The notes under the pieces were generated by a model, which was not told where the DNA came from, did no database searches, and saw nothing but the letters and a program-made list of their open reading frames with translations. This document shows, in pieces, positions 17,527 through 43,517 of a stretch of DNA of 64,000 nucleotides. Position numbers and translations under genes: made by a program. Origin of the DNA: Flavivirga abyssicola (lineage in GTDB: Bacteria; Bacteroidota; Bacteroidia; Flavobacteriales; Flavobacteriaceae); contig NZ_CP141266.1 of NCBI RefSeq assembly GCF_030540775.2, forward strand, positions 27,501 to 91,500. The letters are read 5' to 3'. Within the stretch, counting starts at the first letter, position 1, and every line of letters starts with the position of its first letter.

Positions 17527-18867
17527 TTAGTTCTTTTTAAATATTTCATTTTTATCAACCGAAAGTTTAATTTCCTGCAAACACAAAGAGTAAGCACTCC
17601 CTACAGGTTTTGTTTGTTTTAAAAAAGTCTTATTATTTCTTTTTTTCTCCAGCATATAATTTGCAGAATAGCATAACCACATTGTTTTGCCGTCTTCACT
17701 AATAAACTTTGAAGGGATGTTTACAAAGTAGGCCTGGGGACCAAAATTCTCCATATAAGTTACTATATTCCATGGTCCTGTAATATTCGTCGATTCTAAG
17801 ACATAAGTGTCATATTTTTTTCGAGTGGTCGTACCTTTATGTCCATTGGTAATACACATTAAATACTTATTTAGTGGCTTTACATAAGTCATGGTTACAA
17901 TACCACAATAGTTATTCCACTCAAATACTGGCTTTATTTCTGAAAAATTTTTAGTCCATTTTTCACTTCCATCATTATTAAAACCACAAAAGTATTCGTA
18001 CTTAGATCTGTTATTCATATTTTCAATAGAAGGTGTAACTCTAGCCATAAAAACAGCATCAGCTGAATTCCATGAATTATTAGATACTCGAGGTTTAGAA
18101 TCTAGATTTAGAGATCCATGTCCAATTAAATATGCTTTTCCATCTGGAGAATGTTGCATGTTTTTACCAAAATCAACAAAATGAGGAGCTCCCATTTTTA
18201 TAAAAGGTCCCTGTTTACCGGCTTCCAAATCTAATTCGTTTCTTGAATGTTCAGGGAACAATGGTTTACTTGGGGTATGTTTTGATTCTACCCAAGTTTT
18301 TCCATTATCAACAGAATGCCTAAACCCAACTAACGGCCCTTGAACATACCATCCATAGTTTTTTGCAATTTCTGGTTTTGGTTGATCTATAGTATAAGAT
18401 CCGTAATACCAAACACCATTATACCATAAACTTCCACAAGGGTATCGTCCTTGATAAGGTAATGCTGAAGATTCAAATATTTTATAATCCTCTATCTCTA
18501 AATGCATGGGGTTATTCCCAACAATTTTTGCCTGTCCTCTTTTAGAGTTCCCTCCTGCTCCGGACCACACAAATTTCATATTACTTCCTATGGTACCGTC
18601 TGTCCAAGGTGAGTATAAATTACCATCTGATGCCCATGTAGGATACCAAGTATCTGCCTTGGTATAATTAGCAAATCTTTGTGTAAAAGCTAGGCTTTTT
18701 ATTGATGAAGAATACGTTACAGGACAAGATTTAGGAAGCCTATCGTTCCATACCAAAAGTGAATCTTTAAAAGGAAGCTCTGTACTCTTAAAAGTCCAAA
18801 TATCATTTTTAGTCTGTCCCCATAAAACTTGGGAAGTCATTAAAAGTAGTAAAACTATTTGTTTCAT
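17527..18867 (-). CDS. Secreted beta-propeller protein with Asp-box, putative glycan-active enzyme
   Basis: 446 residues with signal peptide MKQIVLLLLMTSQVLWGQ. The body is a Trp/Tyr/Gly-rich beta protein with at least one Asp-box (SVDNGKTWVES) and repeated blade-like segments (GSLWYNGVWYYGSY, SPDGKAYLIGHGSLN, YLMCITNGHKGTT, SEDGKTMWLCYSANY), i.e. a five- to seven-bladed propeller related to sialidase-like, GH or propeller polysaccharide-lyase folds. The exact family is not recognised. It lies 16 bp downstream of the GH2 gene, last in the susC operon, so an enzyme acting late in degradation of the same glycan is inferred. Confidence 0.7.
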   Translation of the reverse strand: MKQIVLLLLMTSQVLWGQTKNDIWTFKSTELPFKDSLLVWNDRLPKSCPVTYSSSIKSLAFTQRFANYTKADTWYPTWASDGNLYSPWTDGTIGSNMKFVWSGAGGNSKRGQAKIVGNNPMHLEIEDYKIFESSALPYQGRYPCGSLWYNGVWYYGSYTIDQPKPEIAKNYGWYVQGPLVGFRHSVDNGKTWVESKHTPSKPLFPEHSRNELDLEAGKQGPFIKMGAPHFVDFGKNMQHSPDGKAYLIGHGSLNLDSKPRVSNNSWNSADAVFMARVTPSIENMNNRSKYEYFCGFNNDGSEKWTKNFSEIKPVFEWNNYCGIVTMTYVKPLNKYLMCITNGHKGTTTRKKYDTYVLESTNITGPWNIVTYMENFGPQAYFVNIPSKFISEDGKTMWLCYSANYMLEKKRNNKTFLKQTKPVGSAYSLCLQEIKLSVDKNEIFKKN

Positions 18868-18883: not shown

Positions 18884-20959
18884 TTAATTCAAAGCTAAAC
18901 CCGATTTTTTTAAAGTCCAAATAACACTATCTTCTAATTTCAAAGAATTTCCTTTTGAGATTACTTTAATACTATTATTTCCCTCTTTAAGTTGAATATC
19001 ATTAAATACGATACTATTAATATCTGAAGTTAACTTTTGCGTTTTAATCTTCTTATCATTTACATATAAAGTCACTTTACTTAAGTTTGTATACACTTTT
19101 ACAGACGTTTTTTCTTGAGTTCTATCTTTATGTCTTCTTTCGGCTATATATAAAACTGGTTTATCACTCCAATTCGCTTTGTAAAAATAAAAAGCATCCT
19201 TTTTTACTTTCCTGTCAAAAGTAATTAGCCCCTTATGGTTAAGGTTTCTTACTCCTCCACGATTCCATCCGGCAACAGAGAAATCGAACATATTCCAAAC
19301 AAAAGAACTCCAAACAAATGGACGGTTTTTTATTATTTCCCAACTCTTCTCATGATATTCTGTTTGAAACTGCTCAGGGAAATACATGCCTTTGGGCTTC
19401 TCCAACTTATTTATATCTTGGTGTTGAATATTTCCTCCTGCACCATATTCACTAATGCTAATGGTTGTATTTGGAAATTTTTTATGGGATGAGTCTAGCC
19501 AATTTGAAAGCCCTTCAATAGCTGGCGTGTACCAGCCAAAATATTTATTCCATGCTTGCAAATCCGTAATTCCGCCCATAGTCGATACAATATCTCTATC
19601 ACTAGCAGAGATGGTCAACCTGGTTTTATCTAATTCATGTGATAACTTCTTTAATTCTTTAGTTAAAACTACAGAAGGAGTCTTTTCTCCACTCCATGCA
19701 CGTACTTCATTCCATAAGCCCCAAACAAATATGCTTGGATGATTATAGTTTTGTAAAATAAGTTCTTGTAATTGTTGTTTTGCATTACTTCCTTCTCTTC
19801 CGCTCCAATCATGAACAAATGGAATTTCTGCCCAAACTAAAATTCCTTTTTCGTCAGCCAGTTCATAGGTTTTATCAGAATGCTGGTAATGTGACAACCT
19901 TAAAACTGTAGCACCAATTTCATCAATAAGTTCCATATCTTCAACTAACTGCCCTTTATTCATGGCTGGACCAACGTCTTCTCGTTCTTGATGCTTACAT
20001 ACCCCATGCAAATTATAAGGTTCGTCATTTAAAATAAAACCTTTACTACTATCTATTTGGTATGTTTTTACACCAAATTTTTGAGTGATTTTATCAATAG
20101 TATTTCCACAAAACAACTGAACTTCTAAACTATATTGATATGGATTTAGTTTTCCATTCCAAAGTATAGGACGATCTAACTCCATATGGTTTGTGGCAAT
20201 TAAATCTTTTCCAATCGTCTCAAACAACCTCTCGGCTTCACTCACAATCTCGCTTGCCTTATTTCTTATAATATATTTAATCTTGACTTCATTTAACGAA
20301 GATTGATTAGAAATATGGGTGCGTATTTCTAGCTTAGCTTTATTTGATTTTACCTCCGTAGCTTCAATAAAAACACCTGAAGATGCAAAATATGTTGGTG
20401 TTATATTGCATTTAGGTGTTGAAAACATTTGAACGGGCCTATAAATACCTCCATAATGATTGAACAAAGCATCGTCAACTGGAATCCGCTTAAAGCTAGG
20501 AGCGTTAGTTACATTTACAGCTAACACATTTTTTCCTTCAAATTTTATTTTATCAGTTACTTCAAAGCAAAATGCGGAATATCCGCCAACGTGCTTTCCT
20601 ATTTTTTCACCATTTAAATAGACAATAGCTTCTTGACCTACACCTTCAAAGCGAATAAAAATACGCTCCTCTTTCATAGATTCTGGTACCTTAAGTATTG
20701 TTCTATACCATGCTTGTCCCTTGTAATACCCAATGCCTTTAATGGCATCCATGGAATAGCTATGTGGTACAATCACATCTTGCCAACTCAAATCACTTTT
20801 AGTCAATAGATGTCCTTGATTATCTATTCCTTTTGAAAATTTCCAGTGGTCTAATTTTACAAAACTTCTATCTTGTAAGGCGGGTATTTGAGCCGTTAAG
20901 CATATATAAGATAAAAAAATAGCTACTGTAACGACTCTTTTAAAAAAAATGTTCATCAA
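18884..20959 (-). CDS. GH2-family glycoside hydrolase (691 aa)
   Basis: Secreted enzyme with signal peptide (about 1-24). Standard GH2 order: N-terminal jelly-roll sugar-binding domain (LDHWKFSKGID ... WYRTILKVPESM), Ig-like domain, then a TIM barrel. Acid/base Glu in WGLWNEVRAW (about residue 416) and nucleophile Glu in SISEYGAGG (about 503) are intact; YNLHGVCKHQERED at the barrel start is the family signature. A short Ig-like domain (VKVYTNLSKVTLYVNDKKI) closes the protein. Beta-galactosidase and beta-glucuronidase activities both occur in this family; the one here cannot be decided. It lies between FnIII and propeller genes in the susC operon. Confidence 0.92.
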   Translation of the reverse strand: MMNIFFKRVVTVAIFLSYICLTAQIPALQDRSFVKLDHWKFSKGIDNQGHLLTKSDLSWQDVIVPHSYSMDAIKGIGYYKGQAWYRTILKVPESMKEERIFIRFEGVGQEAIVYLNGEKIGKHVGGYSAFCFEVTDKIKFEGKNVLAVNVTNAPSFKRIPVDDALFNHYGGIYRPVQMFSTPKCNITPTYFASSGVFIEATEVKSNKAKLEIRTHISNQSSLNEVKIKYIIRNKASEIVSEAERLFETIGKDLIATNHMELDRPILWNGKLNPYQYSLEVQLFCGNTIDKITQKFGVKTYQIDSSKGFILNDEPYNLHGVCKHQEREDVGPAMNKGQLVEDMELIDEIGATVLRLSHYQHSDKTYELADEKGILVWAEIPFVHDWSGREGSNAKQQLQELILQNYNHPSIFVWGLWNEVRAWSGEKTPSVVLTKELKKLSHELDKTRLTISASDRDIVSTMGGITDLQAWNKYFGWYTPAIEGLSNWLDSSHKKFPNTTISISEYGAGGNIQHQDINKLEKPKGMYFPEQFQTEYHEKSWEIIKNRPFVWSSFVWNMFDFSVAGWNRGGVRNLNHKGLITFDRKVKKDAFYFYKANWSDKPVLYIAERRHKDRTQEKTSVKVYTNLSKVTLYVNDKKIKTQKLTSDINSIVFNDIQLKEGNNSIKVISKGNSLKLEDSVIWTLKKSGLALN

Positions 20960-21009: not shown

Positions 21010-21705
21010 TTACTGGGTAGAAAAACTCCAAACTTGACCTATAGTTTCACCTCCATTATTATCTTTCGCAATAACTTTCCAATAATAATCTGTTGAAGCA
21101 TTTATATTTACGGTCAAACTATTTTCTTCTTGGTTATCTCCTTCTTTATTAACTGGTGGATTCTCTGTACCAAAGAAAACATCATAAGTTAAAGAATCAT
21201 CATCTACATCATTAGCTTTCCAATTCAAATTAACTGTACTACCAGTTATAGTCGTATTCAAATCTGGTGATAAAAGTTCTGGTGCAAACGGTAAATGGTT
21301 TAAACCTCCATCTCCTTCAGTATAGAACTGATAAACAGAAGAGTAATCACTACTTAAGTTTTTACTATCTGTTGCTTTAACTCTCCAATAATAAGCAATT
21401 CCTTTATCTAAAGTTACTGTTTTATTGGTATTTGATACCGTAAAGGATTCATCTATAGCCGCAAATCCATTATCCTGCGAAATTTCCAACACATATGAAA
21501 CCGAATCGCCATCAGGGTCTGAAGCAGCTTCCCACTGAAAATCCAAAACATTTGTAATGCACAATAAGTTATTTGTTGGATAAGTTAATGTTGACACCTT
21601 TGTTGGTGCTTGGTTTTCGGCCTGTTCACCCGAATCATCTCCTCCTCCTGAGCAAGAATATGTTAAAATGCCTGCGATTATTAAATATATTACATTCTTC
21701 ATCAA
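21010..21705 (-). CDS. Lipoprotein with two fibronectin type III-like domains
   Basis: 231 residues. Lipobox YSCSGGGDD gives a membrane-anchored protein with an acidic linker. Two tandem FnIII-like beta domains follow (about 40-125, LDFQWEAASDPDGDSVSYVLEIS ... YYWRVKATD; and 135-230, VNLNWKANDVDDDSLTYDVFFG ... YYWKVIAKD). Both are closely alike, indicating internal duplication. There is no catalytic domain, so a surface scaffold or glycan-binding role is inferred. One base separates its start from the stop of the upstream GH42-like gene, so translation is coupled. Confidence 0.8.
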   Translation of the reverse strand: MMKNVIYLIIAGILTYSCSGGGDDSGEQAENQAPTKVSTLTYPTNNLLCITNVLDFQWEAASDPDGDSVSYVLEISQDNGFAAIDESFTVSNTNKTVTLDKGIAYYWRVKATDSKNLSSDYSSVYQFYTEGDGGLNHLPFAPELLSPDLNTTITGSTVNLNWKANDVDDDSLTYDVFFGTENPPVNKEGDNQEENSLTVNINASTDYYWKVIAKDNNGGETIGQVWSFSTQ

Positions 21706-21706: not shown

Positions 21707-24697
21707 CTAGTTTTTTATAATTTTAATATTGATAGGTTCATTTAATAATACTTTCGCAAAATAAATTCCAACTGGTTTATCTTTTAAATTTAAATGAACT
21801 TTACCTGATTCTATAGGATATACTTTTGAAGAGATTAACTGCGATTGAATATTATATACATTTACAGTTACCTGTTTTTCTTTAGTTGGTATCATATACT
21901 CCACCATTCCTTTTGTTGGATTAGGGAATGCTTTAATATGGCCCGAAAAATTAACGGTTTTAGTGAATGTCCCTTCACAAGACTTACTGGATTTTACTTG
22001 CATGACATCACCATGATTAACTTCTAAAGAGAAAGAATCAGAATACGTTTCATAAACCAATTCACCATTAACATCAACCGTAAAAGGCGCCGTTCCTTCT
22101 TCTATTTCAACCGAAATTTTGTTAGCATTATATGAAGATTTTCCTGTGATTTCTGATGATGATTCAACTTCTAACGTATAGCATTGACTAAAAGTGTTGC
22201 CTACAACAGAAATACACAAATCATAAGTTCCTGGAACAATATTTTCCAAGACCAGTTCTCTATTGAAACTTGTATTGGTACCGTTAAATGCAACTTCATA
22301 GTTTTGTTCTACATCTGCAACAATACTAATCTTTCCATTTTTTTTATCAGGGCAAGTTTCACCATTTACACCTATAGTAAATTGACTATCTTCAGCTGTT
22401 TTCTCTCTTACTTGCAAAAGCAAAACGTCTTCTGGATTCATTTCAAAATTAGCATCTAACTTTTCTCCTGTTAGAAGGTTCTCGCAAATTATGGCATTTG
22501 AAGCGCCTTTTAAACCAAGAGTTATTGATGCTTTGGTTTTTCCAATGTTAACTATAGATATAATTTCTTTATCATCTGAACTCGTATAAGCTCTCCACAT
22601 ACATCCTTTTAAACCTAAATCATTAGTTTCTGACAACGTAATATTTGGAAACCTTTGTTTTGTGTCGGCAACGTTTTTGGCTTTATTAGCAAAATCAGAT
22701 ACATCTGAAGCAGAAATAATCATGCCTCCACTGTTGGTGTTCAAAGTAGTACTTCGTGTTCTTCCGTACTCATCTTTTTTAAGACTCACGGCGTCTATAA
22801 TAACGGTACCTCCTCCATCTAAATATTCTTGTAAAGCATTAAACTCCTCATCAGTAGCAAAATCAGTTTTATAAACTAGAATAGCATCCCAAAGCGAATT
22901 ATTTTGCTTTCTAATAATATTTTCTGTGGCAAATCCAATAGAAAGACCATCAAAAAACAACGACTCATATAAATGAAACGTATCATCCATATTTCCGTCC
23001 TTATTGATTCCAGTTGTATTTGTATTAAATATTCTAATCGATTTTCTTACATTTTGAAGTGCGGCAATATGTTCAGAATGCGCATTCAAGTCAATAACAG
23101 TAGCCTCTAACGCATTAACTATTCTAGGCTGTTGATTATTTGATCCGGCATACCCGCTTCCTGCTTGAGATTTAATGGACAAATTACCATTTCCATCGTC
23201 TTGTCTAGCCCAAAGCCATGTTTGCACGACATTTAGTCCTTGAATATAAGCTAACCAATGAGCCATTCTAGCATAAGAAGGTTTTAGGTATAAATCTCTA
23301 AATCTGGTTGTTGAAAGAAAGTGTCCCTCTGAGTTAAAATTAATACTATTAGGGTTTACTGATTTGAAAAAATCATAAGACATACACATTTCTCTCCACT
23401 CAAAATTATAGCGTGACTCCCATTCTTGTTTTGGTCCCCACATATATGAATTATGAGAAGCTGCATCATTACCAATAATAGTACTAAGCTCTGTAAGTGC
23501 TTCAAAATCTAACCCATGGTCTCTTCTATTACCTGTCCACATACCAGGTATTAATTTAATATGCACTTTTGCTTCCGGGTCATGTTTATTTATTTCATCT
23601 TTCAAAAATTGATACCATTCAGTAACCCTATCCATGTTAAAGCGTTGCCAATCGTACCATTTAGGAGTACCTTTCAATGCTTTTTCAATAGGAATATCTA
23701 TAGTTACGTCATTAAATGAAGGAAAACTTGTTCCCCACAACGTATTTAAGTTTGCTATAGAGGCATGTTTTGTTTGTAACCAAGATTTAAACTTTGTTAT
23801 TGAATGCTCTGAGACAGGACCCGAAGCCCATACATCATTAGTTCCATCTTTTGTGGTGATAAAATGGGGTTCATTACAAAGCATATAACCTAAGTCTGTA
23901 TATTTTTTGCCCTTCATTAAAGGTACTGTACCTTCCAAAAGAAAGCTTTGCATTTCACGTGCTCCAGGATTATCTATATCATAAGCTGTAAAGGTATCTT
24001 CACGCATTCTGAAACCTGGTCCATATTTTGTTTCTGCCCAACCCGGAACCCCTTTATGATTTAAAAAAATAAATCCAAAAGTACTATTAGTTTTACCGTT
24101 TATGTTATTCAGTAATGATGATCTAATTGACCCCGAATCATTAAACACATCTTGAGGTGTCATAAAAACACCATCTTTGTTTCCAAAAAAATCTGTTAGC
24201 TTTGGAATAGAAGGTTTCCAAGAATAATCATTCATAAAAACGGGTTTCCCTTGAAACAAAATTTGATTCCCACTAATAGAAACGTCGGCCCAATCTACTT
24301 TTGGACTTGGCTTTCTTTTAATTTCGCCACTAATCAATTTATTTGCTGTTGCAATGGCTTCATCTAACATTAAAATAACTTCACTTCGCTCAAAATCCGG
24401 AAGGTCATTTGCCAATGTAGCAGCATTACTTTTATAAATTGAGACTCTATCAAAATAGCCTGTATTAATTGTAATGTTATTTTCATCCCAATTGGCATAT
24501 TCTAAAAACACCTGTGCAGTTCTTACTGTCATTTTCTCCTTCAAAACATCTATACCTTTAGTTTCTGCTTCATTAATTAAAGCCTCTAGTGCTGAAATTT
24601 TTTCCAAAGCGGTTTGTTCCAATTGAGCAAAACACGTATGTTGAATGCCCAATAAAACAACGAAAACAAATAAAAGTTTTTGTATTTTCTTTTTCAT
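21707..24697 (-). CDS. Secreted GH42-like (clan GH-A) enzyme with T9SS sorting domain
   Basis: 996 residues: signal peptide (ending TCFAQ), helical segment, TIM-barrel (about 140-550) with probable acid/base Glu in LCNEPHFI (about 274, the Asn-Glu pair of clan GH-A) and a probable nucleophile in NFNSEGHFL (about 452), then a Rossmann-like domain (WDAILVYKTDFATDEEFNAL, LDGGGTVIIDA) like the trimerisation domain of GH42 beta-galactosidases. After two beta domains it ends in FPNPTKGMVEY ... IYFAKVLL, a type A sorting domain for type IX secretion. So it is exported to the surface or medium. Exact family and substrate are uncertain. Confidence 0.82.
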   Translation of the reverse strand: MKKKIQKLLFVFVVLLGIQHTCFAQLEQTALEKISALEALINEAETKGIDVLKEKMTVRTAQVFLEYANWDENNITINTGYFDRVSIYKSNAATLANDLPDFERSEVILMLDEAIATANKLISGEIKRKPSPKVDWADVSISGNQILFQGKPVFMNDYSWKPSIPKLTDFFGNKDGVFMTPQDVFNDSGSIRSSLLNNINGKTNSTFGFIFLNHKGVPGWAETKYGPGFRMREDTFTAYDIDNPGAREMQSFLLEGTVPLMKGKKYTDLGYMLCNEPHFITTKDGTNDVWASGPVSEHSITKFKSWLQTKHASIANLNTLWGTSFPSFNDVTIDIPIEKALKGTPKWYDWQRFNMDRVTEWYQFLKDEINKHDPEAKVHIKLIPGMWTGNRRDHGLDFEALTELSTIIGNDAASHNSYMWGPKQEWESRYNFEWREMCMSYDFFKSVNPNSINFNSEGHFLSTTRFRDLYLKPSYARMAHWLAYIQGLNVVQTWLWARQDDGNGNLSIKSQAGSGYAGSNNQQPRIVNALEATVIDLNAHSEHIAALQNVRKSIRIFNTNTTGINKDGNMDDTFHLYESLFFDGLSIGFATENIIRKQNNSLWDAILVYKTDFATDEEFNALQEYLDGGGTVIIDAVSLKKDEYGRTRSTTLNTNSGGMIISASDVSDFANKAKNVADTKQRFPNITLSETNDLGLKGCMWRAYTSSDDKEIISIVNIGKTKASITLGLKGASNAIICENLLTGEKLDANFEMNPEDVLLLQVREKTAEDSQFTIGVNGETCPDKKNGKISIVADVEQNYEVAFNGTNTSFNRELVLENIVPGTYDLCISVVGNTFSQCYTLEVESSSEITGKSSYNANKISVEIEEGTAPFTVDVNGELVYETYSDSFSLEVNHGDVMQVKSSKSCEGTFTKTVNFSGHIKAFPNPTKGMVEYMIPTKEKQVTVNVYNIQSQLISSKVYPIESGKVHLNLKDKPVGIYFAKVLLNEPINIKIIKN

Positions 24698-25018: not shown

Positions 25019-26689
25019 CTATGGTCTTTCTTCTAATAATATTAAGGATAAATCATCCCAATACATAATTTGTTCTCCTGTTACACCAGAATTATCTCCA
25101 GATGTTACTGATAGATTAATCTGTTGGCCACTAGGAATATTGCTACCTGCGGTAACTACTCTATTTATTTCAACCCATTCGCCTCTAGGCAAAGTCTCTA
25201 AGTCCCATGAAAATACACCAAAAGGTGATCTTGATGTACTAAAACCTTTCATCGTATTTCCTACTTCTAAATAAACTTGATAGGACATTAAATAACTCCC
25301 CGCTGGTATACCATTAGGGCTTGATAAACTATAACCTTGTAAAGTGATATTTCTATCAATTCCATTTGGGTTAGAATATCTTAAAGAAGCTACCCCTGAT
25401 GCAAAATTTTCAGTATTTCTAAAAAAATACCTGTTAGGATCATTAGGCGCACCCGCCCAGTACCCATCTAGACCAGCTTTTCTTGTAATGTTACCTGTCG
25501 TAGCTGCTGTTTCAAACCCCCATTTAGGGTTGGTTAAAATATTAGCTCCTAAATTTATCTGTACATCAAAGGGTCCAAAATCTTGTAAAACTCTGGTATC
25601 AACAGATTCAATTACATTTCCCGCATAGGCTACTGTTATTTCGTCTGTATTATAAACAGGTTGAGAAAGTACTAAATCTATTTTCGTAGCATCTGAAGGA
25701 TTAATTGTTGCACTCAATACCGGTATCTCTTGATCAAAACCAGCAGCTGTATTAACAACACGTACGGTAAAACTATCTTCTGCTCCAACAAATGGCTCTA
25801 TCTCTCCAGTAACCCCTATTGTAATGGAATCATCGTTGTTTTGTATTATCCCACCTGCTTCATTATAAATAAAGGGTTGCGAAGAAGGGATTACCTCTAT
25901 AACCAAAGGTATTAATTTTTTAACCCTTTCTTCTGGAAATTCATCCCCTTCTCTTATAGATGTCATATTACCTGCATTAAAACTACCAAGTGAAAAATAG
26001 CCAACAACATTTATCGAATCATTTGAGGACACAGGTTTCCCTTTGGTGTTAGTCCATGATCTTCCTGTTGGCCTATCTTCACTTGTCAAATCAATATAGG
26101 TTAGAGCATCTCCAGCTTCTACTTGTATAACTGGCCATGTATCTTTATCTTCAATTGAAATTTCTTCATCTCCAGAGATATTAACAATTTCGTTGTCATC
26201 TTTATCTAGGACTTTAAAAGCTGGTTTTAAAGGTCCAAACACATCAACAGTCCACACATTTTCTATAACCCAAACACCATTTTCTTGAAATGCAGGAATA
26301 GGAACAGCTCCTTGATAAGTTACAGAGTCTTTAAAGGTATTTCTGAGTTTTACTTCATTAATCCCTGTATTTAAAAATAACACATGTGCATCTGTATTTG
26401 TTGAGACCGTTCCTAACTTATCATTTACAAAAAGTGGTAGTGAATCATTCTCTCCAAATCCTGGATATAAATACTTATTTCCTTCCTCTATAATAAATTC
26501 ATGCGACAATGCACCTTGTGATAAATCTCTAAAGCTCACAGATTTTCCTTGATTGACTACATAGGCATCACCAGGACGAATATTAGAAACCCATGTAGCA
26601 TCCTGAAATGGCTCTGGCAAGGTTTCATCTTCACACCCAAAAACAAAAACAAGGGCGATTACTAATATTAAATATCTTAAATTTTTCAT
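25019..26689 (-). CDS. Surface glycan-binding lipoprotein candidate (SusE/F position)
   Basis: 556 residues with lipoprotein signal MKNLRYLILVIALVFVFGC. It contains several Ig/PKD-like beta domains and a C-terminal jelly-roll of the carbohydrate-binding-module type (about 385-550: NPKWGFETAATTGNITRK, RYFFRNTENFASGVASLRYS, WDDLSLILLEE). It follows susD by 8 bp, the position where Bacteroidota encode SusE/SusF-like surface glycan-binding proteins. No sequence family with known function is recognised and no catalytic residues are apparent; capture of the polymer before transport by SusCD is inferred. Confidence 0.75.
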   Translation of the reverse strand: MKNLRYLILVIALVFVFGCEDETLPEPFQDATWVSNIRPGDAYVVNQGKSVSFRDLSQGALSHEFIIEEGNKYLYPGFGENDSLPLFVNDKLGTVSTNTDAHVLFLNTGINEVKLRNTFKDSVTYQGAVPIPAFQENGVWVIENVWTVDVFGPLKPAFKVLDKDDNEIVNISGDEEISIEDKDTWPVIQVEAGDALTYIDLTSEDRPTGRSWTNTKGKPVSSNDSINVVGYFSLGSFNAGNMTSIREGDEFPEERVKKLIPLVIEVIPSSQPFIYNEAGGIIQNNDDSITIGVTGEIEPFVGAEDSFTVRVVNTAAGFDQEIPVLSATINPSDATKIDLVLSQPVYNTDEITVAYAGNVIESVDTRVLQDFGPFDVQINLGANILTNPKWGFETAATTGNITRKAGLDGYWAGAPNDPNRYFFRNTENFASGVASLRYSNPNGIDRNITLQGYSLSSPNGIPAGSYLMSYQVYLEVGNTMKGFSTSRSPFGVFSWDLETLPRGEWVEINRVVTAGSNIPSGQQINLSVTSGDNSGVTGEQIMYWDDLSLILLEERP

Positions 26690-26697: not shown

Positions 26698-28479
26698 CTA
26701 ATTAATGTTTGGATTTCTCATAACTTCATTTAGTGGTATGGGCAGATAATCGTGAATAGTTGGATTGTAATTATTAGCGGCTTCATCATACTCATAATCT
26801 ATAGTATTCAAACGAATATTTAAGTTAGCACCTGCCGGATCTGGACTTATCGATGAGTTTTGTCTGTTTCTAGTAGTACCATCCACTCTTTCAACGGTTG
26901 CCGACTTAGCGTAATAGGTTTCATTTGATAATTTATTAAAGTTATCTCCTATTATACCCCATCTTCTTAGATCATTCCAACGTATTTGATGTCCTTCCAT
27001 CGACATCTCTAAAGGTTTCTCTATAAACATTAAACGCTCCATAAGACTGTCTTCATCATAGCTTTCTAAATCAAAAAGTGATCCAGCCCATTTAGGATTT
27101 ATAGGTCCTAACAAACGAAGTGCCCATCTGTGTCTTACTGCATTTATATGCTCTAACGCTCCAGCAACATCTCCTGTTTTTATTAAACACTCTGCTTGCA
27201 TTAGGTAAACATCTGCCAATCTATTTACTACTATATTTTTCCCTGAAGCTCTTGACCCTCTAGGATCTCCTCCTTCGCCAGTGCCTATATCATGATTTGT
27301 GTATTTTTTATATCTACCAAAACCCCAGCCATTATTTCCTAAAATGACTTTATTCCCAGTTAAATCTCCATAATAAGGAGAATGTGTATCATCAACAATA
27401 GCAATCATAGATGATGTCCTTAATGATACAGGACGAAGCGTTAAACCAGATGGAGAATCTGGATCTTCATAAAAATTTCTTTCATCTGAAGGATCCATTT
27501 GGTCTGTTTTATAAGCATTGATTAACCATGCAGGTAAGTTAGGTCCTTCATTATTAGTCGTTTTAAGCGCTAATTGATTTGTTAATACATTATCCTGCCA
27601 TACACCTATATCTGTTCTGTAATCTCTAGTATAATTTAGTTCAAATATAGATTCAGCATTAAACTCTCCTGCTGTTGTAAATAATAGACTGGTATCTTCA
27701 ACTAATTCATAACCGTAATCTGCTGTTACGTTATTTATAACATCATTGAAGTAAACCATTGCTGTTGTATAATCTTCCTTATAAAGGTAACTAGTACCTA
27801 GAATAGTGGCCGCTGCTCCTTTTGTAACACGTCCTAAATTCTGATTAGGGTTTTGATATCTAGCTGGTAAGTTTTCATAAGCATATTCTAAATCTGATCT
27901 AAAGAATGCAACAACTTCTTCTGCTGGAGACAATGGAAGATTAAAATCCTCATCCTCAACAGGAACACGATCTCTTATAATAATACTCCCGTTGTTATAA
28001 GCTGTGTGCAAATAAAAATGCATTAGACCTCTAAAAAATCTAGCTTGTCCCATCTGTCTTGTCCACTCTTCAAGGGCTTCTTCTCCTAATGTAGATTCTA
28101 AACGTTCAAGGGCTTCAATAACTTGATTTGCTCTAAAAGCAACCGTATAACATGCATCCCATTTATTTTGAACTAAACCACTACTGTTAGTATAGGTTTT
28201 CTCGTATAATATTTTAAGACCATCTCTATTTGTTACTGGTCTTCCAAAACCTGGCCATCCTTCATCAGACCTTAAAGATTCATCAAGAATAGATAGTACG
28301 TCTTCGTGTAACATACTGTTGTATGTTGCTGCTAAGCCCGTTTCTGTATCTTTTAAATTCTGCCAAAATACGCTTACTGAAAGTTGATTTGGATTTGTCT
28401 CAGTCAAGCTATCGTCATCACATGCTACTAAGCACATAATGAAAACTAATAATAATTGTTTAATATGTGAATTTTTCAT
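26698..28479 (-). CDS. susD: SusD/RagB-family glycan-binding lipoprotein
   Basis: 593 residues, lipobox VACDDD (Cys about 20). Helical TPR-rich fold typical of RagB/SusD, with the conserved N-terminal LTETNPNQLSVSVFWQNLKDTETGLAATYN, the QARFFRGLMHFYL motif, the GRVTKGAAATILGTSYLYKEDY helix and the C-terminal INAVRHRWAL ... EMSMEGHQIRWNDLRRWG ... YLPIPLNEVMRNPNIN. It closes over the SusC transporter and hands it oligosaccharide. Six bp downstream of susC and coupled to the next gene. Identification certain; the glycan is not deducible. Confidence 0.96.
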   Translation of the reverse strand: MKNSHIKQLLLVFIMCLVACDDDSLTETNPNQLSVSVFWQNLKDTETGLAATYNSMLHEDVLSILDESLRSDEGWPGFGRPVTNRDGLKILYEKTYTNSSGLVQNKWDACYTVAFRANQVIEALERLESTLGEEALEEWTRQMGQARFFRGLMHFYLHTAYNNGSIIIRDRVPVEDEDFNLPLSPAEEVVAFFRSDLEYAYENLPARYQNPNQNLGRVTKGAAATILGTSYLYKEDYTTAMVYFNDVINNVTADYGYELVEDTSLLFTTAGEFNAESIFELNYTRDYRTDIGVWQDNVLTNQLALKTTNNEGPNLPAWLINAYKTDQMDPSDERNFYEDPDSPSGLTLRPVSLRTSSMIAIVDDTHSPYYGDLTGNKVILGNNGWGFGRYKKYTNHDIGTGEGGDPRGSRASGKNIVVNRLADVYLMQAECLIKTGDVAGALEHINAVRHRWALRLLGPINPKWAGSLFDLESYDEDSLMERLMFIEKPLEMSMEGHQIRWNDLRRWGIIGDNFNKLSNETYYAKSATVERVDGTTRNRQNSSISPDPAGANLNIRLNTIDYEYDEAANNYNPTIHDYLPIPLNEVMRNPNIN

Positions 28480-28485: not shown

Positions 28486-31400
28486 TTAAAAATTTAAATT
28501 TAAACCTAGTAAATACTGTGAAGTGATAGGATAATTTCCTTTGTCTAAACCTCTAGCGCCAATACCACCTCCTACTTCTGGGTCATAACCAGTATATTCG
28601 GTAAATGTTAATGGGTTTTGTGCTGAAACGTAAAGCCTCAATCTAGTTAAGCCTATACGCTCAGTAAGTTTTTTTGAAAGACTATACCCCAAAGTTACTT
28701 GTCTTAAACGTAAATAATCCCCTTTTTCTAACCACAAGTCTGTATAACCTCTGTAATTAGGGTGGTTTTTAGAAATACCTCTAAATGTTGGTATATTTGA
28801 ATTTGAATTGACTTCAGACCATTGGTAAACTAAATCTTCATGTCTACCAAATGCAAATGCAGAAGCTTTAGATCCGTTCATAATTTCATGTCCTAATGCC
28901 GCATACCAGTTCATAGACAAATCAAATCCTTTATAGTCAATATTCAAGTTATACCCTATTTCATATTCAGGTAAACCACTTCCTTTATATACCCTATCGG
29001 CCTCACTTATTCTACCGTCGTTATTGTTATCCTCGTATATTAAATCCCCCAATTTTGCTTGTTCTCCTAAAGCGTTATAAGCATCTAGTTCTTCTTGCGT
29101 ATTTATCACGCCATTAGTAGTATATAAAAAGAAAGCTCCAGCCTCATAACCTTCTGCTAAGGCTGTAATGGTTGAAAAACCACCATCTTGACTTACTAGC
29201 CCATTATCGTTAGTAAGTATAAACCCGCTATCGCCTTCTATCTTAGTGATTTTGTTTTTATTGGTTGAAAATATACCATTCATTCTAAACCTTAAACCAC
29301 CTATTTTCCCTCTATATCCAGCACTAACTTCTATACCTTTATTAGTCATATTACCAATATTCAAAGTTCTTGTAGCTCTACCACTTCCTCCAGCTGAACT
29401 TGGAGTTACTATTGGGAATAACATGTCTCTATTGGTTTTATCATAATATTCTGCAGTAAGGGTCAGTTTATTTTTGAAAAAGCCTAAATCTATACCTAGA
29501 TTTGTTTGAATTGATGTTTCCCATTTTACATTACTATTTGCAAAACCTGTTTGAATAGCACCATTAACCAACTCATCTGAGCTTCCGGTGTTTATATTAT
29601 TTGTTCCAAAAACATAGTCTATATTTGGTGTAATTGTAGCATCATAAGCATAATCGCTAAAGCTTTCATTTCCAACTTCTCCATAAGTTGCTCTAAACTT
29701 CGCACTACTTATCGTATTATTTATTGATTTCCAAAATGGTTCATCAGAAATATTCCAAGCTAAAGCGATTGAAGGAAATAGGTTTGATCTATTTTCTATA
29801 CCGAATCTAGACGAAGCATCCCTTCTAACACTAGAACTTAGTAAATATTTCCCCTTATATCCATACTGCACACGTCCAATAACCCCTTGTATTCTATGGC
29901 GGAAATCAGGACCTGATCCTACATTAGGATTTTCGCTGGTACCATTAAGCACCCTTATTGAGTTATTTAAAACATTTGCTCTGGATGCAGAAAATCTTTC
30001 GGTATGATAATCTTCAAAGGTCATACCACCTGTAAATGTAAAATCGTGAGTTTTATCAATGTTCAAATTGTATGTAGCATAAAGATCTAAACTATAATTT
30101 TTTCGCTTTAGCGCATCATTTCTCACACTACTACTTGATGCTGGACTCAAATCCCTTCCATCTGGACTAAAGAATTGACGAAACGGATTAAATCGGTGTT
30201 CAAATTGATTGGTAGTAGAAAATCCAAACCTAGTAGTTAACCGTAGACCTTTTATTAGATCATAATTCAAACTTAAATTTGTCTGTGTTCTAACATCTTC
30301 TCGGTGTCTTTCGTTTTCAAAACTTTCTAACACCCAATTTACCCTGTTTGAATCATCACCAAGTGGCGTGATAATGTCTTCATCTGGACCAACTCCTAAT
30401 AAATCTTGTCTATTGGGTTGATATCTAATAATTTGTCCCACTAGTACACCCGGAGTAAATTCTCTTTCTTCTGAAATAACAGAAACATTAGCTCTTACTT
30501 CAAGTTTTTTGTGTTTATAAGTGGTGTTAGCTCTAATATTAAACCTGTCAAAACTAGAATTGACTAAAGTTCCTTTATTACTAAATAAACCTGTTGTAAC
30601 ACTATAAGTTATATCATCTGTTCCTCCAGAAATATTCACAGAGTAATTTTGTGCTGGTTGATCATCAAGAACTATGTAATCAAACAAATCGGTATCATTC
30701 TGAAGCTTATTTGGTGATAAACCAATAATATCAATTTCATCATCAGGACGAACATTGGTTTGACTAGTCCTAGCGCCTGATAGCTCAAAATAAGTTTGTT
30801 GATTTGCATTCATTAAACGTGTCGTTTCACCGTTAAGTCTTTTAATACCGTAAGTAGCATTAGCTCTAACTGATAAGGAACCTGCTTTACCTTGCTTAGT
30901 TGTTATTAAAATAACTCCAGCAGCACCACGTGTACCATAAATTGCTGTGGATGCAGCATCTTTTAAAACATCTATAGACTCAATTTCATTAGGACTAATT
31001 CCAGGATCTCTTTCTTGTATTAATCCATCAACAACATAAAGCGGGGAATTACTCCCAGAAATTGTAGTGATACCTCTAATTAGAATTTCAGCTTGAGCTC
31101 CCGGTTGCCCTGAGCTAGAAATCACATTTACCCCAGCCAATTGCCCTTGCAATGCTGTACCTAAATCTGAAGTCACAATTTGCTCAATATCCTCTGCCTT
31201 AACACTCGATACTGCGCCTGTAACTTCTTTCTTCTTTACTTGCCCGTAACCAATTACAATAACTTCATCTAAATCTTCCAAAGAAGAAGACATTGAAACA
31301 TTCATTTGATTGCCAACTACCTCTACATCCTTATCTTTCATGCCTAAATAGCTGAAACTCAAAATATCGCCTATCTTGGCGTTAATGGAAAAATTACCAT

Positions 31401-31608
31401 CAAAATCTGATACGGCTCCTGTACTAGAACCTTTTACTATAACCGCTACACCTGGAATAGGCAACCCATCCTCTGCATTGGTTACAGTACCATTAATTGT
31501 TCTTGTTTGTGATTGTGCATTGACACAAAAACTTACGGAGAAAATAAAAGTAAATAGCCACAATTTAGCTAAAGACTTTACCCTCTTTTGTCTTTTGTTT
31601 AATCTCAT
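28486..31608 (-). CDS. susC: SusC/RagA-family TonB-dependent transporter
   Basis: 1040 residues. Signal peptide, then a carboxypeptidase-D-like domain (INGTVTNAEDGLPIPGVAVIVKG), TonB box region around EVIVIGYGQVKKKEVTGAVS, plug domain (LAGVNVISSSGQPG, IRGITTISGSNSPLYVVDG, IEVLKDAASTAIYG-type motif) and a 22-strand barrel ending in an aromatic residue (YLLGLNLNF). No FecR-interacting N-terminal STN domain is seen, so control through an ECF sigma/anti-sigma pair is unlikely; the adjacent winged-helix regulator is the better candidate. First gene of the minus-strand operon reaching 17527. Imports oligosaccharides across the outer membrane. Confidence 0.97.
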   Translation of the reverse strand: MRLNKRQKRVKSLAKLWLFTFIFSVSFCVNAQSQTRTINGTVTNAEDGLPIPGVAVIVKGSSTGAVSDFDGNFSINAKIGDILSFSYLGMKDKDVEVVGNQMNVSMSSSLEDLDEVIVIGYGQVKKKEVTGAVSSVKAEDIEQIVTSDLGTALQGQLAGVNVISSSGQPGAQAEILIRGITTISGSNSPLYVVDGLIQERDPGISPNEIESIDVLKDAASTAIYGTRGAAGVILITTKQGKAGSLSVRANATYGIKRLNGETTRLMNANQQTYFELSGARTSQTNVRPDDEIDIIGLSPNKLQNDTDLFDYIVLDDQPAQNYSVNISGGTDDITYSVTTGLFSNKGTLVNSSFDRFNIRANTTYKHKKLEVRANVSVISEEREFTPGVLVGQIIRYQPNRQDLLGVGPDEDIITPLGDDSNRVNWVLESFENERHREDVRTQTNLSLNYDLIKGLRLTTRFGFSTTNQFEHRFNPFRQFFSPDGRDLSPASSSSVRNDALKRKNYSLDLYATYNLNIDKTHDFTFTGGMTFEDYHTERFSASRANVLNNSIRVLNGTSENPNVGSGPDFRHRIQGVIGRVQYGYKGKYLLSSSVRRDASSRFGIENRSNLFPSIALAWNISDEPFWKSINNTISSAKFRATYGEVGNESFSDYAYDATITPNIDYVFGTNNINTGSSDELVNGAIQTGFANSNVKWETSIQTNLGIDLGFFKNKLTLTAEYYDKTNRDMLFPIVTPSSAGGSGRATRTLNIGNMTNKGIEVSAGYRGKIGGLRFRMNGIFSTNKNKITKIEGDSGFILTNDNGLVSQDGGFSTITALAEGYEAGAFFLYTTNGVINTQEELDAYNALGEQAKLGDLIYEDNNNDGRISEADRVYKGSGLPEYEIGYNLNIDYKGFDLSMNWYAALGHEIMNGSKASAFAFGRHEDLVYQWSEVNSNSNIPTFRGISKNHPNYRGYTDLWLEKGDYLRLRQVTLGYSLSKKLTERIGLTRLRLYVSAQNPLTFTEYTGYDPEVGGGIGARGLDKGNYPITSQYLLGLNLNF

Positions 31609-31775: not shown

Positions 31776-31841
31776 AAGAAATTAAAAACATGTTTTAAAA
31801 TTAGCTAATAATGGACATTAATGTTATATTTAACGGCTGTT

Positions 31842-31862
31842 TAACGGTATTTGTAACCGTTA
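31842..31862. promoter_or_regulatory. Palindromic operator candidate before the regulator gene
   Basis: Perfect inverted repeat TAACGGT-N7-ACCGTTA, 36 bp before the regulator start at 31898, with a further TAACGGC half-site just upstream (31831). The spacer atttgta and 16 of 21 bases recur at 35787-35807 before the GH2 gene. Autoregulation and control of GH2 by the same protein is inferred. Confidence 0.6.
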
Positions 31863-31897
31863 ATTTTTTAGCAAATTCTCATAAAAACCAAAACCAA

Positions 31898-33049
31898 ATG
31901 CTTTCTAAAGAAAAAAAGCTACAGATTTGTGATAACATCACAAATAGTGACGTTTTTAAAAAAGCGCCTAAGAGTTCTGCCCTACTTAAATACCTCGTTA
32001 AATCCACTTTGGAAGGAAACTATTTAAAAGAAGACATTATAGATCTTGAATTTTTTGGAGAAAAAGATAATTTAAACAATTCAAGCCCTAGAATAAGGGT
32101 TAACATTTATAATCTCCGGAAAAAAATAGATAACTATTACGAAACCGAAGGTGCAAATGCCAGTTGGAGACTTTGTATTGATAAAGGACAGTATAGTGTA
32201 AGTTTTGAGAAACAAGATTTACGAAAAACGACGTTTAGAAATGTTAAATTAACACAAATACTACCTTATATTTTATTAATACTTGTGTCTCTTTTTTATA
32301 TCATTTCAAACTCTAAATCTGAACCTCCAAAATTATGGGGCTCCTACTTTAAAAATGACAAAAAAAAGTCAATACTTGTTGTAGCCGATTTCTTTGGCAT
32401 GCAAGGTAAAACTGTAACAGGTGGACATGGTTGGGTTAGGGATTACAATATTAATTCTTCAGAAGAATACTACGAATTAATTGAAGATAAACCTGAATTA
32501 AAAGAAACTATTCAACCGGCTCATTACTATTTTACAACAAGCATGGGAGCAGAAGCCACGCATTACATTTCAAAACTATTTTATAATCATAACTCTGATT
32601 TTGATGTACGATATACTTCTAATACTTCTGTAGTAGATTTGAAAAAATGGAACCTAATTTTTGTTGGGCCATTTCTAAACAAAGATAAGTTTATATCACT
32701 TTTTAATGACTTCAATCCTTATTTTAAGTTAGAAGGAGAAAAACTAATATTGGAGAGGCATCCAAAACTAAAGGACACCATATTTACTACATATTTTAAA
32801 GGTGAAGACAGAGATTTTTCAATAGTTTCCAGATTTAAAGGTCCTAATCAAAATGAATGTTTTTTATTCTTTTCAAATCATGATATAGGTGTAAAAGCGA
32901 CTGTTGAACACTTTACAAATAAAGATTCTCTAGATGTTTTCAACAAAAAATATATGAATGAAAAAGAAAACTTTACGGCTCTTTATGAGGTTAATGGAAA
33001 AGAAAGAACAAATCTTGGTCTAAAAAATATAATGGTAGTGCCTTATTAA
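31898..33049 (+). CDS. Membrane-anchored winged-helix transcription regulator
   Basis: 383 residues from ATG 31898. An upstream ATG at 31811 would add 29 residues but would place the palindrome 31842-31862 inside the gene. Residues about 5-104 form a winged-helix DNA-binding domain of the kind fused to TolB or adenylate-cyclase-like modules in Acidobacteria and Planctomycetes (SSALLKYLVKSTLEG, LKEDIIDLEFFG, RIRVNIYNLRKKIDNYY, IDKGQYSVSF). One membrane helix follows (about 121-139, ILPYILLILVSLFYIIS), then a 245-residue, presumably periplasmic domain of unknown fold. It is divergent from susC, so it is the likely sensor-regulator of the polysaccharide locus. It is not of the HTCS, SusR, AraC or ECF type. 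Confidence 0.75.
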   Translation: MLSKEKKLQICDNITNSDVFKKAPKSSALLKYLVKSTLEGNYLKEDIIDLEFFGEKDNLNNSSPRIRVNIYNLRKKIDNYYETEGANASWRLCIDKGQYSVSFEKQDLRKTTFRNVKLTQILPYILLILVSLFYIISNSKSEPPKLWGSYFKNDKKKSILVVADFFGMQGKTVTGGHGWVRDYNINSSEEYYELIEDKPELKETIQPAHYYFTTSMGAEATHYISKLFYNHNSDFDVRYTSNTSVVDLKKWNLIFVGPFLNKDKFISLFNDFNPYFKLEGEKLILERHPKLKDTIFTTYFKGEDRDFSIVSRFKGPNQNECFLFFSNHDIGVKATVEHFTNKDSLDVFNKKYMNEKENFTALYEVNGKERTNLGLKNIMVVPY

Positions 33050-33066: not shown

Positions 33067-35721
33067 CTAATCCTCTTCCTTTTTAGGGTTACTTCTTAAT
33101 TCCATAAAAGCCTGGTTTTCTCCAACCAACTCTAATCTTAATGCTCTTACTTCTCTTTGTAACGCCTTCACGTCTGTAGGTAAATCATCACTATAGTCTT
33201 TTCGCTCCTGAATCATTACCATATCCTTATTAACCATTTTAGAATACTTCATATAATTCTCATCATAATACAGCGGTATTCTTATTGGTTTTGATTCAAA
33301 AGTTATTTCGTCCGATTCTAAGCCATTCACATAGGCTTTTACTTTTATAGTTCCTGGTTGAGTTGATGCTCTAATTAATGCCGTAGCAATTCCAAAAGAT
33401 GATTTAGCTGGGTTACCAAAGTTTTTAATTCCCCCAATAACCTGAGCGGGTCCCTCAACCTCAAAGTAAACATACTCTTCGGCCAATACTTTCTTTATAC
33501 CTCTCTGATCAACTATAGTTGCTCTGATAGGCACAAAATCAGAACCATCTGCTATTAAATCTAAGCCTTCGTCATCTATACTTAATTTTAGTTTTTCTGA
33601 ACGTTGGGCATATACCTTTACTTCTTCTATGACCTCTTTGTTATTAACAAAACCTTTAGCTATCATTTTTGCAGGTAAACTTCTTTCTTCTTTAGTTCTA
33701 TGTTTTAGCTGTTTCAAATTAAAAACATCTTTAAAAACAAAGGGTGGGTGAGGTAAACCACTATATATAGAATCTTTAGAAGGTTTCATAGTACCATAAT
33801 CCTTACCCATCCATGTTAACTGTATTTCATCACAATTACTGTAAATAATGATGTCCTTAGAAGATAACTGGGTTAATTCATTAACGATATAAAGCATTGG
33901 ACCTGTGCTAATTCCTTCAAGTTTATAGTTTGGATCATACTGGCTTTGATACAAATAATAGGTATAACGCGGCAACCTGGCAACGTTTAAATGTCCTCCC
34001 CAAAAAGGGTCTGGATGATACCCTCTTTGATGATCTATACCAGCCCACATAGCTCCTCCAATACGTATCTTATCAGTCTTAAATCTTGCTGACAGTTCTT
34101 TAGCTTGCCGCAATGATTGATCTATCATGGCTTTTTCTCCCCACTCTCTCTTCACCCTTACTACTGAGTTTTGGGAGTACCAATCATCCACTTCATAACC
34201 ATCTCCAAACTCGCGGTTAAAAGAGTTTACTTTTTTATCATGACCATGATAGTATACATCTAACCCACCTTTTTTAGCTTCTTCGTAATCTGTAACCGTA
34301 AACATGCCAGGGAATGGATATTCGGAATGCGCCACTTTATGCATATTATTCATAACATGCCCAGGCTGTGAGGGTGTTTCATTTAGCGCTGTTTCCCAAA
34401 GCAAGATTGATGGTCTGTTTCTATCTTTTCTTACTAAATTACGGGAGTCTTCATATAGTCGGTCTTCAAATATTTTTTCTTTGAAATTAAAAAAATGCCA
34501 TCCAGGATTAGCACTGGTGGTGATCATACCTAGTTCATCACAAGCATCATAAAATGCATCGTCTTGAGGATAATGGCCTACTCTTATAATGCCACTGCCA
34601 CCTTCCCTGAGCAGTTTAACATCCCTATAATGCGACGAATTTGGTAAGGCATTCCCAACATATACATAATCTTGGTGACGGTTAACTCCAATTAATTTTT
34701 TCCCAATATATTTCTTATTAACAAATAAGCCTTCTGGTCCTTTCATTTCATACAAACGAATACCTATCCTGGTTCGCATTTGGTCAACGACTTTTCCATT
34801 TACCAAGATATCTGTTCTTAGATAATGTAAGTAAGGATTATCAGGGTACCATAAACGTACATCATTTACTGTAAATCGCTTTTTTAATTGCTTACTTCTA
34901 TTGGGCTGTAATTTAATGTGCTGTTCTACTGTTTTAAGAACCTTCTTATTCGCATCTTCTAAGCTAGATTTTACAGTAATAAGTTGCAATCTATTCGTTT
35001 CGTTAACTACTTCTGTTCTTACTTCTAATTTTGCTATATTTTCATCTACATCCAAAGTCCCCACAAAAACACCACCTCCAGCAACTGTATTACTTAACTC
35101 TGGCAATGTTACATGTATATTATTTGTTTTTATTAAAAAAACATCTCTGTAAATACCACCAAAATAGCTAAAGTCTAACCCTGATTGATTTTTACCTGGG
35201 GGATACAATTTACTATCACTGTTATCCGCCATTACAGCAACAATATTCTTCTCGTCTTCATTTAAAAAATCTGTAGCATCAATTGCAAAAGGCAGGTAAC
35301 CTCCATAATGTTCAGCTACCTGCTTGCCATTAATCCACACTCTTGCTTCTCCCATGACAGCTTCAAAGTACAAGAATACTTTACCTTTTAAGTCTTCTTC
35401 TGCTACAGCAAATTCTTTCCTGTACCAAGCTTTTCCTTGATAATTTCTACCGCCACTAGCATTTTCAGGCAATATCTCTAATCCATGTGGCAGATTTACT
35501 CCTATCCAATTTGAATCGTCAAAATCTTTAGTTCCAGCAGCTTCTACATCTCCTTTATAAAAACGCCAACCTGGATTAAAGTTAAAAACCTTTCTATTAC
35601 TATTCTCCACTTCAAAAAAGCCAGCTGTAGAAAATGATTTCTGACAGTGAGCTTCATTTGAACCTAAGAACAGTATCATAAAAATTAATTGAACTAATAC
35701 AGGTTGCCTCATTTTATACAC
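33067..35721 (-). CDS. GH2-family glycoside hydrolase (884 aa)
   Basis: Secreted (signal ends EAHCQ). GH2 order: jelly-roll sugar-binding domain (FNFNPGWRFYKGDVEAA ... AWYRKEF), Ig-like domain, TIM barrel with LIGVNRHQDYVYVG, acid/base Glu in LLWETALNETPS (about 447) and nucleophile Glu in FNREFGDGYE (about 502). C-terminal Ig-like and invasin-type domains follow (FVPIRATIVDQRGIKKVL), then an unusual charged, possibly coiled-coil tail (DVKALQREVRALRLELVGEN). It is distinct from the 691-residue GH2 and is transcribed from its own promoter, which carries the palindrome shared with the regulator. Convergent with the regulator gene at an 17-bp gap. Substrate unknown, probably galactosidic or uronidic linkages. 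Confidence 0.92.
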   Translation of the reverse strand: MYKMRQPVLVQLIFMILFLGSNEAHCQKSFSTAGFFEVENSNRKVFNFNPGWRFYKGDVEAAGTKDFDDSNWIGVNLPHGLEILPENASGGRNYQGKAWYRKEFAVAEEDLKGKVFLYFEAVMGEARVWINGKQVAEHYGGYLPFAIDATDFLNEDEKNIVAVMADNSDSKLYPPGKNQSGLDFSYFGGIYRDVFLIKTNNIHVTLPELSNTVAGGGVFVGTLDVDENIAKLEVRTEVVNETNRLQLITVKSSLEDANKKVLKTVEQHIKLQPNRSKQLKKRFTVNDVRLWYPDNPYLHYLRTDILVNGKVVDQMRTRIGIRLYEMKGPEGLFVNKKYIGKKLIGVNRHQDYVYVGNALPNSSHYRDVKLLREGGSGIIRVGHYPQDDAFYDACDELGMITTSANPGWHFFNFKEKIFEDRLYEDSRNLVRKDRNRPSILLWETALNETPSQPGHVMNNMHKVAHSEYPFPGMFTVTDYEEAKKGGLDVYYHGHDKKVNSFNREFGDGYEVDDWYSQNSVVRVKREWGEKAMIDQSLRQAKELSARFKTDKIRIGGAMWAGIDHQRGYHPDPFWGGHLNVARLPRYTYYLYQSQYDPNYKLEGISTGPMLYIVNELTQLSSKDIIIYSNCDEIQLTWMGKDYGTMKPSKDSIYSGLPHPPFVFKDVFNLKQLKHRTKEERSLPAKMIAKGFVNNKEVIEEVKVYAQRSEKLKLSIDDEGLDLIADGSDFVPIRATIVDQRGIKKVLAEEYVYFEVEGPAQVIGGIKNFGNPAKSSFGIATALIRASTQPGTIKVKAYVNGLESDEITFESKPIRIPLYYDENYMKYSKMVNKDMVMIQERKDYSDDLPTDVKALQREVRALRLELVGENQAFMELRSNPKKEED

Positions 35722-42050: not shown

Positions 42051-42051
42051 T

Positions 42052-43515: not shown

Positions 43516-43517
43516 TT

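Follow-up and report, generated by a model that had tools for sequence, protein, structure and literature searches.

A predicted transmembrane winged-helix regulator family with candidate direct-repeat operators beside mainly carbohydrate-catabolism operons of Flavobacteriaceae

How is a polysaccharide utilization locus controlled when the gene facing its susC encodes none of the regulators usually named for such loci? The question is raised by a 64,000-nucleotide stretch of the Flavivirga abyssicola genome (NZ_CP141266.1, positions 27,501 to 91,500), referred to here as the window, in which a transmembrane protein with a winged helix is encoded next to a susC-type gene. Excerpts of earlier work name SusR-like, HTCS, and ECF/anti-sigma regulators for polysaccharide loci (PMC3878776) or regulation by HTCS, ECF, and CCR (PMC10766802), and an AraC-type regulator is given for carrageenan in an excerpt of PMC5698469. 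A preliminary description of the window, made from the sequence alone, had called a membrane-bound winged-helix regulator unusual for polysaccharide loci, and this class is indeed absent from those named in the excerpts of PMC3878776 and PMC10766802.

The regulator and its home locus

The regulator gene (31898..33049, forward strand) appears in the ORF list as a frame of 383 amino acids at the place first proposed for it. As had also been described, it is divergent from a gene for a susC-type TonB-dependent receptor (28486..31608, reverse strand). According to the domain search, the receptor is a clear SusC/RagA protein (TIGR04056, E 1.9e-247) with CarbopepD_reg and Plug domains, and the STN model gave no match to it at E <= 1, in keeping with the earlier view of a susC without STN. 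The ORF list and domain search place the following genes behind it on the reverse strand: a susD-type gene (26698..28479), a gene of the presumed operon for a 556-amino-acid protein of no clear family (25019..26689), a GH42-like glycosidase with a T9SS sorting tail (21707..24697), an fn3/SusE-like protein (21010..21705), and, at the far end of the presumed operon, a GH2 glycosidase (18884..20959). An internal promoter is possible before the GH42-like gene because a gap of 321 bp precedes it. A 446-amino-acid protein with no Pfam match at E <= 0.01 is encoded 16 bp after the GH2 gene (17527..18867, reverse strand), and a sulfatase gene (16006..17526, forward strand) flanks the locus. The susC-susD pair together with the glycosidases marks this region as a polysaccharide utilization locus. 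No second regulator gene was found among the ORFs listed between positions 16006 and 36270 (at least 100 amino acids long from position 20000 on and at least 150 before it). Another GH2 glycosidase gene (33067..35721, reverse strand), identified in the same way, is convergent with the regulator gene and lies outside the divergent operon.

Based on the ORF list, an alignment of relatives, hydropathy, and profile comparison, the protein is laid out as a winged helix (residues ~20-104), a membrane helix (~118-137), and an outer, periplasmic domain (~138-383). An alternative upstream ATG at 31811 would give a product of 412 amino acids. We prefer the start at 31898 because three relatives (L032, L033, and L034) begin in the same alignment column and because the predicted operator (see below) would lie inside the longer frame. 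The best 19-residue Kyte-Doolittle window of the regulator scores 2.27 and begins at residue 118. In all 64 of 64 family proteins this window begins at residues 116 to 151, with a score above 1.6 in 59 of the 64, which agrees with the one membrane helix described before. Five lysine or arginine residues stand before the helix of the 383-amino-acid protein and two after it, and the ~245 C-terminal residues beyond it are predicted from the sequence to form a periplasmic sensor.

Evidence for the winged helix comes from weak but recurrent matches. The PF00486 model (Trans_reg_C) matched the 383-amino-acid regulator at E 0.085 only, and it matched 28 of 40 aligned relatives at E <= 1, the best at 4.4e-4. 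Using hhalign, the family profile aligned to a joint alignment of PhoB, OmpR, CadC, and one response regulator with E 2.3e-4 and a probability of 44%, over the recognition helix and wing only. Single profile comparisons gave 0.0032 for PhoB, 0.0033 for one response regulator, 0.011 for CadC, and 0.18 for OmpR, against controls of 0.06 for TetR, 0.57 for reversed PhoB, and 0.64 for reversed CadC, so that OmpR alone scored worse than the TetR control. Taken together, the profile scores and the Trans_reg_C matches indicate a winged helix that is OmpR-like but distant, and to this extent the domain assigned in the preliminary description stands. The N-terminal beta-sheet known from CadC is not apparent in the family in our reading of the alignment. 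As suggested earlier for cyclases, the same type of winged helix is found by tblastn (residues ~12-107) in alphaproteobacterial plasmid proteins annotated as adenylate cyclase and TPR protein. These proteins have the N-terminal winged helix in common with the regulator, but the matches stop short of its sensor domain. A domain search of the regulator and the 40 aligned relatives found no kinase, receiver, or AraC-type domain. No sigma or anti-sigma domain was found in the 383-amino-acid regulator, and Sigma_reg_N gave one weak match (E 0.0048) among the 40 relatives.

The outer domain, which had been described as an outside domain of about 245 residues without a recognised fold, gave only noise-level matches against Pfam, NCBIfam, and PDB sequences, whether as a single protein or as profiles (best PDB sequence match, E 1.4), and none of these searches linked it to a sugar-binding family. 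Structure predictions made with one companion sequence each (L032, 95% identical) gave no reliable model, the pLDDT being 33.6 for the whole protein and 32.0 for the outer domain. A search with the sensor only, in which the best nine or fewer candidates per genome were scored, located it at no fewer than 22 places in 10 of 296 Bacteroidota genomes. All sensor matches among the candidates scored lie in open frames of 381-440 residues, which is the length of the regulator architecture. An acidobacterial C-terminal domain of similar appearance was dropped from consideration, the two listed Granulicella plasmid matches spanning the winged helix only.

Relatives and their divergent partners

Relatives of the regulator were found at E <= 1e-5 in 21 of 299 sampled Flavobacteriaceae genomes, with up to six matches per genome, and at this threshold both sampled genomes of the host's own genus lacked one. 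The nearest named relative found belongs to Flavivirga rizhaonensis (95% identity) and was the sole match in the genome-contig search. A profile search across Bacteroidota matched 16 of 395 genomes, four of them (G322, G439, G510, and G601) only in part. Among 94 plasmid records with a match, 7 span 80% or more of the query, two from Persicobacter, two from Catenovulum adriaticum, and three from Novosphingobium; the viral contigs scanned held no relative. One C. adriaticum copy faces a DUF1553-DUF1501 operon with GH115 and GH43 genes nearby, and the other faces genes for a c-type cytochrome, a hypothetical protein, and a DUF1080 protein, with a beta-galactosidase gene on its other side. Two of the Novosphingobium plasmids (L124 and L126) each carry two regulator relatives tail to tail at ~8926-11648; ORF calling is unreliable in these GC-rich sequences, and their layout was left out of the counts. 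A relative in genome G051 (L050, 8482-9686) is split into frames of 312 and 72 amino acids by assembly error or decay, and its second piece was left out of the operator, box, tree, similarity, and strand counts. Genome G444 contains near-identical regions on separate contigs (L119 and L120), with a GH3 gene that is one frame in L119 and three pieces in L120.

Forty-one loci, the home locus and L032-L071, were read closely. The upstream neighbour of the regulator gene is divergent in 39 of them (the exceptions are L037 and L045), compared to 142 of the 428 remaining ORFs that reach 150 amino acids in the same loci. The 39 partners, whose cluster names rest on one or few members each, comprise DUF1553/PSCyt (10), GH2 (7), 3-keto-disaccharide hydrolase (5), GH3 (5), an unrecognised cluster termed c9 (4), susC (3), UxaC (3), GH115 (1), and GH88-like (1) proteins; orthologous loci are not independent in these counts or in the operator counts below. 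For 14 of the 39, the DUF1553 and c9 proteins, a role in the breakdown of sugars is not known. Further loci have the same layout, the upstream ORF being divergent for 22 of 22 regulators in L102-L121 and 4 of 4 in L122, L123, L125, and L127. Partners or next genes in L102-L127 include susC or other TonB receptors, alginate lyase, sulfatase, sugar transporters, and GH141.

The commonest partner is the DUF1553-DUF1501 operon, often with an NHL-repeat gene, which occurs in Flavobacteriaceae and on a Catenovulum plasmid (L058-L061, L063, L065-L067, L070, L071, L102, and L123). The c9 partners (L052, L054, L055, and L056) are ~480-635 amino acids long, and Pfam yielded nothing at E <= 1e-5 for the two members tested.

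Only 3 of the 41 regulators face a susC gene (home locus, L032, and L033), and the specific link to susC that had been proposed is not upheld. The preliminary description had itself named homologues spread without susC neighbours as evidence against its idea. Such homologues do exist, as it had worded the case; mostly other sugar-catabolism operons stand there instead, and the wider idea is therefore strengthened. On a tree of 64 regulators, from which rows with E above 1e-50 as well as row 5 of L119, rows 2 and 6 of L120, and row 9 of L050 were omitted, the partner labels require 27 changes, whereas shuffled labels need 47.3 on average and none of 200 shuffles came as low. The partnership with susC alone needs at least four changes on this tree, for which we assigned the partner labels ourselves, L108 and L109 being called TonB receptors from length and N-terminal resemblance only.

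A direct-repeat array between regulator and partner

The intergenic regions hold an array of AACnGT direct repeats in which AAC recurs 11-12 bp apart and the last unit is extended to TTAACnGTTAA. At the home locus the predicted operator (31829..31864, forward strand) consists of three direct repeats (TTTAACGG, TTTAACGG, and GTAACCGTTAA) with AAC spaced by 11 and 12 bp, and its end is 33 nt from the regulator ATG. We defined the operator core as at most one mismatch to TWAACNGTTAAW within 260 bp upstream on either strand. This core occurs upstream of 36 of the 41 regulators versus 36 of 389 control ORFs and 15 of 103 divergent control ORFs; since controls carry it at 9%, the core alone is not specific. 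Among 30 regulators outside the first set it was found in 12, and the operator is therefore clear mainly in Flavobacteriaceae. The five regulators without it in the first set are L037 and L045, for which an array was found elsewhere in the genome, and L056, L062, and L068, for which none was found. The one-mismatch core of L057, which lacks a second unit, is probably due to chance. Because the core is nearly palindromic, its strand alone is uninformative. The two-unit form (at most one mismatch) lies on the strand of the regulator in 28 of 41 cases and on the opposite strand in 1 of 41.

Within the 4.68-Mb home genome, the exact two-unit form of the home operator occurs once, before susC. Allowing up to three mismatches, only one other two-unit match (with three mismatches) was found, compared to six for a reversed control pattern. 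As the sole operator match precedes susC, the GH2 gene at 33067..35721, which had been put forward as an expression target, is not an obvious reporter target.

Operator sequences follow those of their regulators. Across 41 operators, operator similarity correlates with regulator identity at r 0.78 for all pairs (none of 1000 permutations as high), at r 0.76 for pairs below 60% identity, and at r 0.69 for such pairs with different partners. This set omits the weak single cores of L057, L103, L110, L116, L122, and L127, the Novosphingobium rows, row 5 of L119, rows 2 and 6 of L120, and, apart from L041, all rows whose core has more than one mismatch. A partner swap illustrates the same relation: the regulator of L034 faces a 3-keto-disaccharide hydrolase gene yet groups with the susC clade on the tree, and its operator most resembles that of L121 in the susC clade (27 of 34 positions) and then the GH2 type (25), not those before other 3-keto-disaccharide hydrolase genes.

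A sigma-A -7 consensus of TAnnTTTG has been reported for a flavobacterium (PMC9723704, excerpt). The candidate -7 box of the susC operon (TAATTTTA, 31796..31803, reverse strand) has one mismatch to it and lies at an offset of 49 from the operator core. On the partner strand, an exact TAnnTTTG stands at offset 48 from the core in 11 of 42 upstream regions with a usable core, which include two near-copy pairs (L119/L120), one of them counted twice among the 11. Four of the 42, each from the DUF1553 group with its shorter array, have the exact box at offset 41. If one mismatch outside the TA is tolerated, 16 regions have the box at 48 and 6 at 41, and the largest pile-up at a single offset over 300 shuffles was 2. 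For 27 of the 42 regions, neither offset carries an exact box. From these positions, the array would end ~24-27 bp upstream of the partner's -7 box, as do activator sites that overlap the -33 element. On the regulator side, five loci (L052-L055 and L057) have an exact TAnnTTTG 14 nt before the regulator ATG, so that these mRNAs would be leaderless or nearly so.

The motif ACNGTNNNNNTAACNGTTAA occurs in 18 of 21 regulator-carrying genomes versus 42 of 278 others of the same sample. Carriers have 32 sites. Twenty-six of these share the strand of a regulator gene that begins fewer than 300 bp downstream; the other six are four inside ORFs (L132-L135) and one each in G002 and G236. The G002 site heads a run of genes for GH88, BNR, and then the regulator itself (L045), with an exact -7 box at 49. 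Genome G236 has a three-unit array 62 bp before a GH2-GH2 pair, 278 kb away from its regulator L037, which has neither a divergent partner nor an array of its own. The pair is 66.9% and 65.3% identical to the GH2 facing the L040 regulator in a genome of the same genus, and a one-mismatch -7 box lies at the usual place. The array thus stays with the target when the regulator is elsewhere.

Mode of action and kinship with known regulators

Computation shows the architecture, the array, the distance at which it stands from the -7 box of the partner, and the way in which operator sequence follows the regulator. We consider it likely that the protein is a one-component, membrane-anchored activator, similar to CadC and ToxR, that serves mainly one local operon. 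The outer domain would meet a polysaccharide breakdown product in the periplasm, and the signal would cross the single membrane helix and set two or three winged-helix domains side by side on the array. From its position overlapping -33, the occupied array would switch on the divergent operon, and because only 33 nt separate it from the start codon of the regulator, the protein probably also limits its own synthesis. Each regulator would mainly serve one operon, and the family appears to have been deployed repeatedly on different operons, mostly for sugar catabolism. The direct membrane-bound switch of the preliminary description is thus well supported in outline for the adjacent operon, but its tie to susC finds no such support.

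The location of the array between divergent genes, 33 nt from the start codon of the regulator, would also suit a membrane-anchored repressor that blocks both promoters until a sugar signal releases it, and divergent autorepressing regulators are common. However, the array stops ~24-27 bp short of the partner's -7 box, on its upstream side, instead of covering it, a spacing that is usual for activators. CadC and SusR are likewise described as activators in excerpts of PMC5430869 and PMC3878776, and we regard repression as improbable. It is very improbable that the regulator acts on its own gene only or on a distant target, with the divergent layout a matter of hitch-hiking. Divergent neighbours are common enough among control ORFs (142 of 428) to invite that reading, but 39 of 41 regulators have one, the partners come from many unrelated families, the spacing between the array and the -7 box of the partner is fixed, and in G236 it stands before the GH2 pair while the regulator is elsewhere.

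Activation of the divergent operon leaves room for a different kind of signal, in which the outer domain listens to the transporter or another periplasmic protein, much as an anti-sigma factor listens to SusC via STN. The sensor domain matches no sugar-binding family, and ToxR works with ToxS (PMC13042144, excerpt), as such a variant would have it; against it, no STN model matches the home susC, and many relatives lack a susC among their closest neighbouring genes, which makes sensing through a protein doubtful.

Among known systems, the activator proposed here is most readily compared to ToxR-like receptors, described in excerpts of PMC5430869 and the survey PMC10269533 as single proteins in which one membrane helix joins a cytoplasmic winged helix to a periplasmic sensor. 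The regulator is likewise one protein, with a predicted N-terminal winged helix, one membrane helix by hydropathy, and a predicted periplasmic sensor. It differs from CadC and ToxR in that its winged helix resembles OmpR only distantly and apparently lacks the beta-sheet found at the N terminus in CadC, its sensor domain has no detectable relation to a known family, and the partners of its family are mostly carbohydrate operons. Whereas CadC prefers AT-rich DNA with nonspecific contacts (PMC5430869, excerpt), the family has an ordered predicted operator of direct repeats 11-12 bp apart. Judged from sequence, full membership in the ToxR-like class would hinge on the winged helix.

SusR resembles the regulator as a membrane protein with a periplasmic sensor that activates the sus operon and has predicted direct-repeat sites, but excerpts of PMC3878776 place its DNA-binding part near the carboxy terminus, give its repeats an unusually long spacer, and report it as unique to Bacteroidetes. 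The regulator family instead carries its DNA-binding domain at the N terminus, has repeats spaced by 11-12 bp, and includes almost full-length members in Proteobacteria; with the first two of these features, the regulator falls outside the SusR family. HTCS proteins also combine a membrane sensor and a DNA-binding part in one protein, but the kinase, receiver, and AraC-type domains were not found in the domain search of this family, which is accordingly not counted among them. Nor does an ECF sigma/anti-sigma system with an STN transducer fit, with no such domains found in the regulator and no STN on its susC.

Transmembrane transcription regulators are abundant in Bacteroidota according to an excerpt of PMC10269533, and the proteins studied here may therefore well be in its tables. 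A search of the open-access literature, partly in excerpts, found no description of the regulator family. We probably have before us an undescribed regulator family of mainly carbohydrate-catabolism operons with a private, uncatalogued periplasmic domain, in which each paralogue would read its own 12-bp-phased direct-repeat operator and switch on one operon. It would have been copied from operon to operon in Bacteroidota, would be shared with Alteromonadales and Sphingomonadales, and would take the place of the SusR, HTCS, or ECF systems of gut Bacteroides. If true, polysaccharide loci without a recognised regulator would gain a recognisable regulator family and a readable operator, by which each operon could be assigned to one sensor. 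The compact one-protein sensor would be testable and reusable, and DUF1553/DUF1501 operons would be tied to the same kind of control.

Elsewhere in the window, a MerR-type regulator with W-x9-EH and ExHxxG stretches is encoded at 41108-42007 (forward strand), just before carotenoid-like genes at 42040-45530. These stretches may be B12-binding, as in a CarH/LitR-like light sensor.
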